Of a stretch of 64,000 bases of DNA, positions 24,276 to 63,910 are shown one piece after another. Position numbers and translations under genes: made by a program. Origin of the DNA: Piscirickettsiaceae bacterium (GTDB taxonomy: Bacteria; Pseudomonadota; Gammaproteobacteria; Nitrosococcales; Methylophagaceae); NCBI GenBank assembly GCA_013215775.1, contig JABSQO010000003.1:62001-126000 (forward strand), in the 5' to 3' direction. How positions within the stretch are numbered: the first letter of the stretch is position 1; each line of letters begins with the position of its first letter. The notes under the pieces were generated by a model. The model ran no database searches and was not told the DNA's origin. It saw nothing but the letters and a program-made list of their open reading frames with translations.

Positions 24276-25568
24276 CTAATGACCTCTTAGGATGCTTTCA
24301 TGCTCTTCACGGTGATACCACTTGCCTCCAGACACACAAAAATCTGTCACAGAAATGTAATCCCATGCCGTTCCTTTCGTTTGAATGTCGATGTTTGCGA
24401 TCCCAAACCCGTTGTGCCACTTCTCACCTTCACAGTAACTTGCTGACCGCTTGTGACCGCAGCCGAGCTGATGCCATTCGTATGCGCCAAACACGGGTGA
24501 AAACATAGGCCAAACTTGATGTTGATGGTGATGCCCATTCGCGCCTGGCAAACCCCAGCTTCTTGCGTGTGGAAAATGGTGAAACAACAATGTGTCCCAA
24601 TAAATCTTGTAGTTGTTCTGCAACTGCTTATTGAACTCACCCTTGGTGAACGTAGCCAAGTTTGCTTTGGCAATATAGTTGATCTCGAACTCTTCTAAAC
24701 CCAACAGCTTGCCAACAGTGAAACCATGCAAGTCCGACAGCACAGCTCTCAATGCCGGTGTTGCATCTGTAAGCGCCCTCAATAGACGTGCTTCGTGATT
24801 GCCCTCGATGAAGTCAATTTGGCAGTCAGGGCAAACCTCTCTCAATGGTCGGAAGATACGCTCATGGACAAACTTGATTCGACCCACTACATCCCACTCA
24901 CGCGGATCGACGCCGTATTTCCCGAACTCAGGTAAGTCAAAAATGTCGCCATTGAATACAATCAAATCCGGTTGGAGTCGCTTGGCGGTATCCAAGAACA
25001 CTCTTAAAAAGAACTCGTCTATCTCAACGTCATGCAAGTCTGAGACAACCAAGACCGTCTTAAATCGACTGTCGTTCTCTCTAATGTACATACTGCCCCA
25101 ATCGGCTCTCTCGATGTTTAAGGCGCGGTAATGATCAATAGAGGCGTGCTTGGCGATGCTTCTTTCCAGCGCGTGTTGATGTCGCGTCAGTTTTATACCA
25201 GCCTGGCGTTTGAACTCCTCAAATGTGCCGAAGTATCTATTCCATGTTGATTCTGAAATTTGCGAGTACACTCGAAAGAAGTTTCTACTAACCACCTTGT
25301 CTGGATCAATCTCAGAAATGCGGACCAACTCTGCAATACACTCTTCTGCGCCCCACTTTTCCATAAACTTGCCTTCGTCTTCCGACATTGGCACGAGCGC
25401 TCGACTGATTAACTTTGGAACATCTTCGCCATTTTTATAACGCTTGCGAATCTTGTTTGCTTTAATCTGCACTGTTCTTGGCACGATTCCTAACTTCTCA
25501 GCTACATCGGCGTTCTTTGGGTAGTCTTTAAGGTTGTTGTACACTTCTGCAAATTTATTAAAATCCAT
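24276..25568 (-). CDS. HTH domain + calcineurin-like metallophosphoesterase
   Basis: N-term NADVAEKLGIVPRTVQIKANKIRKRY; VVSDLHD, FNGDIFD, EGNHEARLL, HHFPH, NGHHHQHQ metal-site motifs. Confidence 0.8.
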   Translation of the reverse strand: MDFNKFAEVYNNLKDYPKNADVAEKLGIVPRTVQIKANKIRKRYKNGEDVPKLISRALVPMSEDEGKFMEKWGAEECIAELVRISEIDPDKVVSRNFFRVYSQISESTWNRYFGTFEEFKRQAGIKLTRHQHALERSIAKHASIDHYRALNIERADWGSMYIRENDSRFKTVLVVSDLHDVEIDEFFLRVFLDTAKRLQPDLIVFNGDIFDLPEFGKYGVDPREWDVVGRIKFVHERIFRPLREVCPDCQIDFIEGNHEARLLRALTDATPALRAVLSDLHGFTVGKLLGLEEFEINYIAKANLATFTKGEFNKQLQNNYKIYWDTLLFHHFPHARSWGLPGANGHHHQHQVWPMFSPVFGAYEWHQLGCGHKRSASYCEGEKWHNGFGIANIDIQTKGTAWDYISVTDFCVSGGKWYHREEHESILRGH

Positions 25569-56837: not shown

Positions 56838-58544
56838 ATGTCTGTAATTCAAATCGCACACAACGCGGTCAAAGCTAAGTTAATTGACGTACCAAGAGAG
56901 GTGAAGTTGAAAGTGTCTGAGCTCCTTTCTTATCGAGTGGAAGGTGCCGAACACGTGGCCACGACTAAATCTGTCGGGTGGAATGGGCGGTCTTCGTTTT
57001 TTCACTTTAAGCAAGGGACATTTCCCGCTGGATTTGTTCATCGGATACATGATGGCCTGACGAGAGCTGGCTACACTGTGAAGATCGTTAGAAAGGCTCT
57101 ACCATTGCCTTTGGGCGACAAAAACCCGAAGGTGGATGACTTCCCAGAAGATCCCAGATACGATTATCAGGCGCTTACCGTCAAGAGATTGCTAAAGCAT
57201 GGTCAGATAATCGCGCAGGTGGCGACAGGTGGCGGGAAGTCCAGAATTGCCAAGCTGGTTTACGCCACGATTAAGCGAGAAACTTTGTTTCTAACAACCC
57301 GCTCCGTCTTAATGCACCAAATGAAAGATGCGTTTGAAAAAGACATGAAAATAAAAGTTGGCGTTATTGGCGAAGGTGAGTGGAACGCGACAAAGGGAAT
57401 GAATGTTGCGATGGTTCAGACGATTGCCCCCTACGTTGACAAGAAGACGGTCGAAGGCGAGATTGAGCGATTTTTGATTGCCCAGTTCAACGCCGAAAAG
57501 AAAGCCATCGATGCCTTAAAGCTCAAGCTGAAAAAAGATAAGGCGACGCTTCGTGAAATAAACACCGAGATTGCTAGGTTGAGACGAGCTTTGATCGCCA
57601 AGAGACCGTCTGACTCCAGACTAGCCACTGCCACCAAAGCGAAGGTTGCAAAGCACAATGCAAAACACTTGCAGGTTCTAAAGTTCTTGGAGCGATTTGA
57701 GGTTGTTATTCTTGAGGAGGCACATGAAGCCGGTGGCAATGGGTTCTTTGAGATTCTAAAGCGCTGTGTCAATGCTCATTACCGACTATCGCTTACAGCA
57801 ACGCCGTTTATGAGAGACGACGAAGAAGCGAACATGCGGTTGATGGCCACCTCTGGTCCAATCGGCATTAAGATTTCAGAAGACATGTTGATCAAGCGCG
57901 GAATTCTAGCGAAACCAATCTTTAAAATTGTCGATATGGGAGATCCAATTAAGAAACTTCACCCGAATTACAACAAAGTTCGTCGGACAACCCCCTGGCA
58001 GCGTGCCTACAAGCTCGGTATTGCCGAAAATGAGGTTAGAAACGAGATTATTGTTGAAGAGTGTGCACGATCTAAGCGCAATGGTCTGACCGCAATGGTG
58101 CTTGTTCACCACACGGCTCACGGTCATATTCTGAAAAAGATGATGTTGGCTGAAGGTATCAAGGCCGACTTTATCTATGGCAAGCACGAGCAGTCACAGC
58201 GTAAAAGAGCCCTGGCTCGGCTATCAAGTGGCGAGATTGACGTATTGATTGGCTCTACCATTCTCGATGTGGGCGTTGACGTCCCTGCCGTTGGTCTGGT
58301 GATACTTGCGGGCGGCGGTAAAGCGGAAGTCGCCCTGCGTCAAAGAATTGGACGTGGTTTGCGCTGTAAGAAAAGTGGGCCAAACATTTGTTTAGTTGTT
58401 GACTTTTCTGACCTTCGCAACTCTCACCTAAAGGGTCACGCAATGCAACGTAGAGCGATTATCGAGGATACGCCTGGCTTCGCCGAAAACATTCTTCCAA
58501 AGGGTGTCGATTTCGACTACGAAGAGCTAGGGTTAGCGGCATAG
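56838..58544 (+). CDS. SF2 DNA/RNA helicase
   Basis: VATGGGKSRIAKL, VVILEEAHEAG, LSLTATPF, GSTILDVGVDVPAVGLVI, RQRIGRGLR. Confidence 0.92.
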   Translation: MSVIQIAHNAVKAKLIDVPREVKLKVSELLSYRVEGAEHVATTKSVGWNGRSSFFHFKQGTFPAGFVHRIHDGLTRAGYTVKIVRKALPLPLGDKNPKVDDFPEDPRYDYQALTVKRLLKHGQIIAQVATGGGKSRIAKLVYATIKRETLFLTTRSVLMHQMKDAFEKDMKIKVGVIGEGEWNATKGMNVAMVQTIAPYVDKKTVEGEIERFLIAQFNAEKKAIDALKLKLKKDKATLREINTEIARLRRALIAKRPSDSRLATATKAKVAKHNAKHLQVLKFLERFEVVILEEAHEAGGNGFFEILKRCVNAHYRLSLTATPFMRDDEEANMRLMATSGPIGIKISEDMLIKRGILAKPIFKIVDMGDPIKKLHPNYNKVRRTTPWQRAYKLGIAENEVRNEIIVEECARSKRNGLTAMVLVHHTAHGHILKKMMLAEGIKADFIYGKHEQSQRKRALARLSSGEIDVLIGSTILDVGVDVPAVGLVILAGGGKAEVALRQRIGRGLRCKKSGPNICLVVDFSDLRNSHLKGHAMQRRAIIEDTPGFAENILPKGVDFDYEELGLAA

Positions 58545-62457: not shown

Positions 62458-62630
62458 GTTTGTTCGGTCTCTCGTCGGTAGTATAAGGTTAGCTGGGAAT
62501 TGTCGGCCGGTAGTATAAGGAAAGCACTTTATAGTGGAAAATATTGGCTCCTATACCTAGGTGCTTTTTGAGAATTTCTAGGACTTTGTTATTTTCTATC
62601 TAACTTGCTACTTACTCACTCATAAACAAG

Positions 62631-62660
62631 TTAGAGCGTGACACAATTATCACGCTCTAA
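62631..62660. terminator. Perfect 10-bp-stem hairpin downstream of ORF 62669..63277
   Basis: TTAGAGCGTG-ACACAATTAT-CACGCTCTAA. Confidence 0.7.
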
Positions 62661-62668
62661 TCGTTTGC

Positions 62669-63277
62669 TTATTTCTTCGCGCTTGCTTTGCACATTTTCA
62701 ATAGTTGCTTGCTTTCGTCGCTGTCTTTTAATGATAGCATTTTGTTTTCTTTGTCGTACTCTGTAATGTTCATTATGTGAGTTGCAAACGCTGTGCTTGA
62801 TGTCTGCGTGTCTGCTGTATTGATAGCGTAATGATTGCGTATGTCTGTCGCTTTCATACTGTCATTCTCGATACAGATAGCACTTGAAGATTGACGTTGC
62901 TTTGTTGACATTGCTTTGCTATGTCGCGTCATGTTGAGCAAGTGCGCTACAACGTGAGACGTAAACGTCTTAGACTTGCACAAAACGTCAGTCTTTAGAC
63001 TGTTGATAATTTCAGTACACTTTATAAGAGCGTATGCGTTGCTGTACGCTGTCGTTTTGTTGTACTGCTTGATCTTACTAGTACATGATAAAACAACGTC
63101 TGTAGAGCTTAGCGCTACGCTAAAATTAAGTATATGTCTCGACACTGCTTCGCTAGTAGCGTCAAGCTCGATACGTTCTGATAATTCGCGTTGAATTTTC
63201 GCGTTGCTTGCAATGTTAGATAATTTTACGTTAGATAATGATTTTATGTTTTGAATGTGCTTAGTAGAATGTGTCAT
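62669..63277 (-). CDS. 202-aa protein of unknown function lacking Gly, Pro and Trp
   Basis: Open frame with ATG, purine-rich AAAGAGAG upstream, terminator hairpin downstream; inside GG/CC-free segment. Confidence 0.6.
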   Translation of the reverse strand: MTHSTKHIQNIKSLSNVKLSNIASNAKIQRELSERIELDATSEAVSRHILNFSVALSSTDVVLSCTSKIKQYNKTTAYSNAYALIKCTEIINSLKTDVLCKSKTFTSHVVAHLLNMTRHSKAMSTKQRQSSSAICIENDSMKATDIRNHYAINTADTQTSSTAFATHIMNITEYDKENKMLSLKDSDESKQLLKMCKASAKK

Positions 63278-63596
63278 TATATGCTCTCTTTATAGTTAGT
63301 TAGTTTAGTAGTACGTTGCAGTGAGTGACTTGTTATTGCTTAGTCTTGATACTGACTTAATAAGCGTATCGTGCTAAGTCGTTAACGCTGTTTCGCTGTA
63401 ACGTGTAAACATAATAGCACGCTGAACAATACACGCAAGCACTAAATGCAAAATAAATGTAAATAAAGTGTAAGTGACTGATTGATATAGAGATAAAAGC
63501 TAAAATAAATGTTGCAATTGTAAGAAGTAGCATAAAAAGCGTGTAAATGCGACGTTTTAAGCGTGTATATAAAGAGTGTATTCCGTCAGCGTGTAG

Positions 63597-63647
63597 ATGA
63601 GGAACATTCTCAAATGAGGACGATTGCTAAATGAGGAGCGTTCTCAT
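63597..63647. repeat. Three exact-period 17-bp tandem repeats
   Basis: ATGAGGAACATTCTCAA / ATGAGGACGATTGCTAA / ATGAGGAGCGTTCTCAT. Confidence 0.85.
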
Positions 63648-63910
63648 TTAAGAACGATTTCACTTTCCATGGAGAAGGAACTTGGTTCGCGCGTACGCAG
63701 ATAGCTAGCCTTTCCCAATCAGGTTTCCATGGAGCAAACCACTTCCAGACCCACTTCCGCTCTGGCACTGGCGCAATGCCCCAGCCTCTCCCACCAAGGA
63801 AACCTCACATCGGTGCGACAACCGATACCCTCTCCCGCTCACCAAGTAAAGAAAAGAGCGAATTAACGCCCTTCCCTTCACCTCATGTTATTAGCGTCCG
63901 TAGACGGTCC

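Follow-up and report, generated by a model that had tools for sequence, protein, structure and literature searches.

How can a kilobase of phage DNA hold not one GG or CC step, and what keeps these steps out? The question was raised by a preliminary description of the 64,000-nucleotide stretch analyzed here (the window), which had reported an island free of both dinucleotides on either strand at positions 62582-63583. Every step was therefore counted, and the report proved exact: the interval is a strict GG/CC-free zone of 1002 bp, bounded by the nearest GG/CC steps at 62581 and 63583. The zone has a GC content of 37% (A.27, C.17, G.20, T.36), at which 69 GG and CC steps would be expected, practically the figure of about 70 given earlier, and none is observed. 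GC and CG steps are indeed common, being over-represented with observed/expected ratios of 1.9 and 1.5, and all the other steps apart from GG and CC show ratios of at least 0.8.

A chance origin of the zone was ruled out by two procedures. In 2000 mononucleotide shuffles of the zone the number of GG/CC steps averaged 69.2 and never fell below 47 (z = -9.7), and the longest GG/CC-free run in 30 first-order Markov simulations of 64 kb was 157 bp. The second-longest run measures 83 bp in the window and 138 bp in the whole source contig of 150,783 bp (C23), and GG/CC density is ordinary in the flanks and in the remaining contig. The preliminary description had named misassembly and chance recurrence as findings that would overturn it; misassembly was excluded by the zones present in independently sequenced isolates, and recurrence by the simulations. 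Its statement that the edges are sharp stands with a correction, as the left edge falls within a site conserved in the clade (62578-62586) and the strict zone is extended by margins where all 7 residual GG/CC steps are GGA or TCC and no GGB (B = C, G or T) occurs. The resulting GGB/VCC-free zone spans about 62561-63683, with its far edge at -1099 from the site.

The source contig, which was binned with a bacterial genome, carries siphophage genes encoding a tape measure protein, portal, TerL and central tail fibre J, together with RNR and ThyX, the last two called by blastp against annotated relatives. TerL is 60-65% identical to the proteins of SSU5-like phage-plasmids and of Pseudomonas syringae Nickievirus, the terminase, portal and capsid are SSU5-like, and the gene order UvsW-ParB-ABC-TerS-TerL is shared. 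By gene content and order we thus assign the contig to a siphophage related to Nickievirus and SSU5. The UvsW-like helicase gene (56838-58544, plus strand), located 4 kb from the zone, anchors the locus by synteny in every relative.

Relatives were reached through this helicase, which led to the IMG/VR contig 3300020390_000002 (G059), strongly depleted of GG/CC at the equivalent position, and then by tblastn with the zone gene of G059. Strict GG/CC-free runs were found in the Pseudomonas (Nickievirus) isolates nickie (1137 bp), hairong (1125 bp), phiK7B1 (1115 bp) and Nican01 (1083 bp), in two IMG/VR contigs (1490 and 1072 bp) and in Rhizobium phage RHph_Y2_11, where the run reaches 888 bp at 51% GC. 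Reading from the helicase anchor added the Rhizobium phage V1VFA-S (1279 bp) and B1VFA (851 bp), as well as near-clean zones in N1_10, X66 and RHEph10. In C23, nickie, phiK7B1, hairong, the IMG/VR locus L035, V1VFA-S and Nican01 the stretch completely without GG and CC measures 1002-1490 bp, and the zones mostly have 43-50% GC. Klebsiella p4727 is partly and E. coli PhiR41_1 weakly depleted. The Stenotrophomonas phages ANB28 and BUCTxx99 carry the boundary site and no purged zone, while SSU5 has neither the zone nor an exact copy of the site, its iteron-like CCTTATA copies being present. As a separate observation, the T4-like Vibrio phage nt-1 (L020, 500-3700) shows a mild GG/CC depletion (observed/expected 0.47-0.56).

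IMG/VR was also scanned blindly with the pattern site-N56..60-CCTTRYACW, regardless of GG/CC content, and a usable zone was available at 76 loci. A GG/CC ratio below 0.25 was found at seven of these, each of which carries at least two repeats; three of the seven are new members (L077, 0/97; L111, 0/104; L079, 1/114) and the rest are known contigs. The other loci with at least two repeats showed graded ratios of 0.37-0.59, except five near 1.05, and all the single-repeat loci had ratios of 0.64 or more. Contigs L064, L087, L100, L104 and L132 were seen to hold the site and two CCTT repeats without GG/CC depletion. The zone is a conserved locus of a phage clade, neither a one-off nor an artefact. 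The proposal that the segment is a discrete cassette has to be revised, in that the unit is not a lone one and sits at a fixed locus that is conserved across the clade and bounded by a conserved site.

Comparison of the zones with one another indicates that GG and CC are kept out by purifying selection, not by mutation or recent origin. The zones of nickie and hairong differ at 408 of 1004 sites, and about 96 GG/CC-creating changes would be expected among these differences; none was seen (log10 P about -57 under independence). Across pairs of Nickie-type zones, 151-408 aligned differences should have brought 39-97 gains of GG/CC, and no gain occurred. A mutational process such as deamination of CC is disfavoured, as the GA/TC products are not enriched, GC and CG are over-represented and divergent zones are clean. 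A cause lying in the protein or in codon use was rejected: synonymous recoding of the zone ORF by phage codon usage gave 22 +/- 4 GG/CC steps (minimum of 7 in 5000 recodings), and the non-coding parts are just as clean. Moreover, a relative of the Nickie-type zone gene located elsewhere in G059 has ordinary GG/CC content, and the constraint therefore follows position. The earlier view that it acts on nucleic acid rather than on protein is borne out, since it spans coding and non-coding DNA on both strands.

The zone gene of the source contig, P0001 (62669-63277, minus strand), encodes 202 residues with no Gly, Pro or Trp, in keeping with the GG/CC-free rule, which requires this. It is preceded by a GG/CC-free non-coding leader (63278-63583), and a terminator-like hairpin of 13 pairs lies between the ORF and the boundary site (62631-62660, minus strand). 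No Pfam or PHROG family was assigned to P0001, homologue searches in phages, plasmids, IMG/VR and genome contigs gave no match, comparison with 59 related genomes returned one marginal match only, and blastn with the island found matches at chance level. Of the other zone genes, those of L069 and L123 show weak similarity to P0001 (an E-value of about 5e-5, from a small set). A profile of Nickie-type genes built without P0001 does not recover it and its structure model is poor (pLDDT 41), so that P0001 is not counted here among the Nickie-type genes. The Nickie-type zone gene, found in nickie, G059, L034, L035, L077, L079 and L111, encodes 181-191 residues; its confident structure model (pLDDT 94) is helical throughout, has a winged helix at the C-terminus and gave only weak fold matches, to MarR- and RepL-like proteins. 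The Rhizobium-type gene is reversed relative to the site and cannot be aligned to the Nickie type. Zone genes diverge fast, and the small gene, which in the Nickie type has the modelled winged helix, looks like a regulatory one. The gene within the zone varies and occurs in either orientation, so position and DNA matter and not one protein.

These genes invite the explanation that the zone gene product itself reads GGN on DNA and that its own transcription unit has been purged to escape silencing or cutting. The zone does span whole transcription units with the gene in either direction, the confident winged-helix model would suit such a product, and the rapid divergence of the genes is in line with a drifting specificity. 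However, the nickie, RHph_Y2_11 and PhiR41_1 (EcR41) gene types have no detectable mutual similarity, yet all would have to read GG, no catalytic family was found among the zone genes, and the zone extends past the gene up to the conserved site. We thus regard self-escape as unlikely.

The residual steps revealed what is being avoided. In the zone of G059, GGA, GGC, GGG and GGT occur 24, 1, 0 and 0 times versus 30, 107, 96 and 53 times in a 1.4-kb flank (P about 1e-24); GGA is thus kept at flank density (24 per kb), while the other three words together count 1 versus 256. The zone of L133 shows a different exemption, with counts of 0, 0, 0 and 45 against 43, 61, 64 and 49 in the flank (P about 1e-24), and L092 and L069 lean towards the same GGT exemption. 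The zone of nickie forbids every GGN word, and nearly all of these words are gone from the zones of nickie, C23 and the Rhizobium phages. The rule thus concerns a duplex trinucleotide, GGN, from which individual phages exempt one word (GGA in G059, GGT in L133), and the third-base preference of its reader would vary between phages. Avoidance of a dinucleotide, as first proposed, was correct in that a short word is avoided, the unit being the double-stranded trinucleotide with its exemptions. In the temperate relatives PhiR41_1 (L052) and p4727 (L051) the residual GG steps are mostly TGG (27/41 and 25/42), a bias that hints at a different preference on the 5' side.

Both in the margins and in G059, the residual sites read GGA or, as the complement of this word, TCC; words complementary to each other are handled alike on both strands, and therefore double-stranded DNA is read. 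This bears on an RNA-level cause, in which an RNase or an RNA-binding protein would read GG or CC in the transcript, much as MazF reads ACA in RNA. In favour of such a cause, the zone looks like a transcription unit with a hairpin at its end. Against it, each exempt word is found together with its complement on both strands (GGA and TCC in G059), a sign that duplex DNA is read, and the rule holds for either gene orientation. An RNA-level reader is accordingly highly improbable. The exemptions also weigh on host defence, one of the causes suggested in the preliminary description, in the form of a CRISPR PAM (CC for type I-F, NGG for Cas9) or of GG/CC-reading restriction. GG and CC are part of known PAMs and of many restriction sites. 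Yet host defence acts genome-wide, whereas only about 1 kb next to one site is purged and the rest of these genomes has ordinary GG/CC; the genome-wide PAM depletion expected for type I-F or Cas9 was not found in the contig. Furthermore, the hosts range from Rhizobium to Pseudomonas, and no single PAM accounts for one phage exempting GGA and another GGT. Host defence is barely credible as the cause.

The zone ends inside the boundary site AAGTCCTAG (62578-62586, minus strand), whose clade consensus is AAGTCYTAG, often in the form CAAAGTCYTAGAA, and this motif marks the end of the zone in every purged phage. When purged phages were aligned on the site, GG/CC steps per 100 bp numbered 0-3 before it and 13-21 after it. 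Beyond the site, most phages carry 2-4 CCTTRYAC repeats (CCTT(A/G)(C/T)A(C/T)); in the window both iterons read CCTTATACTACC on the minus strand, at 62509-62520 and 62477-62488, starting 66 and 98 bp from the start of the site. The first repeat starts at +66 to +68 in ten phages, a group comprising C23, G059, Nickie-type phages, p4727 and PhiR41_1. The Rhizobium and Stenotrophomonas phages have no CCTTRYAC repeats at this position, where the Rhizobium phages carry another sequence. In nickie and RHph_Y2_11, whose genomes are complete, the 9-mer occurs once, and C23 and ANB28 each contain two extra copies, presumably by chance. In L035 (5303-5352) the site lies within a perfect 20-bp inverted repeat (CTTACTTACACTTTTCTAAG ... 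CTTAGAAAAGTGTAAGTAAG).

The far edge of the zone lies 0.8-1.7 kb from the site, and unusually GG/CC-rich intergenic DNA is often found just past it. Stretches of this kind outside the zone were noticed in L047 (about -1400 from the site), L030 (18333-18653) and L011 (18950-19100), with 25-35 steps per 100 bp and, in some, repeated GGGGAACGG or GGGTGCTGG. TGAG-N-TTCTCA-like repeats occur past the far edge in the window (63597-63656) and similarly at the far edge of L035 (3540-3770), both forming Fur-box-like arrays of TGAGAAT-N-ATTCTCA-like palindromes.

A GC-skew minimum was located 0.6 kb from the site in nickie and 0.2 kb from it in G059, while C23 has no turning point near the site and that of RHph_Y2_11 is 2.5 kb off. 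The locus has the look of a region for early control or of a lytic origin, the origin part of this reading resting on skew and repeats. Primases read trinucleotides, which differ between species, and a primase starting at an NCC template would leave both strands primer-free near an origin from which GGN/NCC had been removed. The zone has about the size of one Okazaki fragment, all these phages encode a DnaG-type primase, and nickie and G059 have their skew minimum close to the site; against this, both strands are purged where one would suffice for a one-way fork, and we know of no benefit that such a zone would bring. A primase-silent origin is thus distinctly unlikely.

The one-sided sharp edge and the fixed spacing of 66-68 bp between site and repeats, which recalls lambda cosN-cosB, might instead denote a virion DNA end, with a cos-like cut at the site, terminase binding at the repeats and a zone that is packaged last, injected first and bound to survive an early GGN-reading attack. 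A cos upstream of TerS was considered and dropped for want of a shared motif there, which leaves room for an end at the site. On the other hand, no genome record ending at the site was found, the termini of phiK7B1 are not detectable (PMC8537276) and T5 first-step-transfer DNA shows no depletion, making a virion end very unlikely.

The reading that we tentatively prefer, at somewhat less than an even chance, is that an early-control or origin region is kept clear of a putative phage-linked DNA enzyme or binder that reads triplets. A factor encoded by or linked to the phage would read GGN and act all over the DNA of the infected cell; it might be a base-modifying enzyme, a nuclease or nickase, or a coating protein, whose third-base preference would have drifted between phages. 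The locus would have to stay unmodified, uncut or uncovered for transcription or firing, and selection would remove any new GGN arising in the zone but tolerate the word elsewhere in the genome. The two Stenotrophomonas phages with the site and no zone, and the partly depleted E. coli and Klebsiella relatives, count against this reading. We know of no DNA modification in these phages, and no gene family common to all the zone-bearing phages and absent from the zone-less SSU5 and ANB28 was found. A host-DNA nuclease of the A1 type was rejected as a partner: partial matches were confined to G059 and C23, SSU5 had no match and blastp gave none in nickie. A metallophosphoesterase gene in the window (24276-25568, minus strand) encodes an N-terminus resembling the T5 A1-like protein of RHph_Y2_11 and also occurs in G059. 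A phrog_3932 protein is universal in the clade (L008 11405-12172, minus strand; relatives in nickie, RHph_Y2_11, SSU5 and G059); its N-terminus is acidic, and on visual inspection its C-terminus is similar to the Nickie-type zone gene.

It is an even call whether these genomes combine a putative triplet-reading activity with an evolvable third base (GGN, GGB, GGV) and a dedicated 1-kb 'unreadable' control zone that tracks it. No description of such a zone was found in the literature, and a zone whose sequence follows a specificity may just as well be a previously undescribed type of genome feature as not. The conserved and full removal of a short word, in which the word that is forbidden changes from one relative to another, is a strong footprint of a DNA-reading activity in phages; the GGN words that are allowed offer a readable code for seeking the actor by co-variation, and if this actor turns out to modify or cut DNA, it might provide a new short-word DNA tool. 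The zone also flags a conserved control locus of a phage assemblage that is large, has been little studied and counts SSU5-type phage-plasmids among its members; resistance genes can be carried by phage-plasmids as a group (PMC9600943).

Among known systems, T5 first-step-transfer DNA is likewise a privileged early region of a large siphophage, differing in that it is not GG/CC depleted. Phage CAjan carries a context-specific 7-deazaguanine modification of its DNA, with preQ0 at GA and GGC. It shares with the present case a phage enzyme reading a DNA word of 2-3 bp that differs between phages, but 7-deazaguanine genes were not seen in the present phages and we know of no description of a modification-free zone. 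CviPII of Chlorella virus NYs-1 is a CCD nickase with a matching methyltransferase and is similar as a virus-encoded enzyme reading CC plus one base, whereas it comes with no purged zone and no homologue was found here. Iteron origins and lambda cos share the single site with repeats at a fixed distance, but no kilobase is purged of a short word there. Finally, in the engineered 'ACA-less' single-protein production with MazF, a sequence purged of the attacked word stays usable; that system is artificial and concerns single-stranded RNA, whereas the present zone is natural and apparently concerns duplex DNA.
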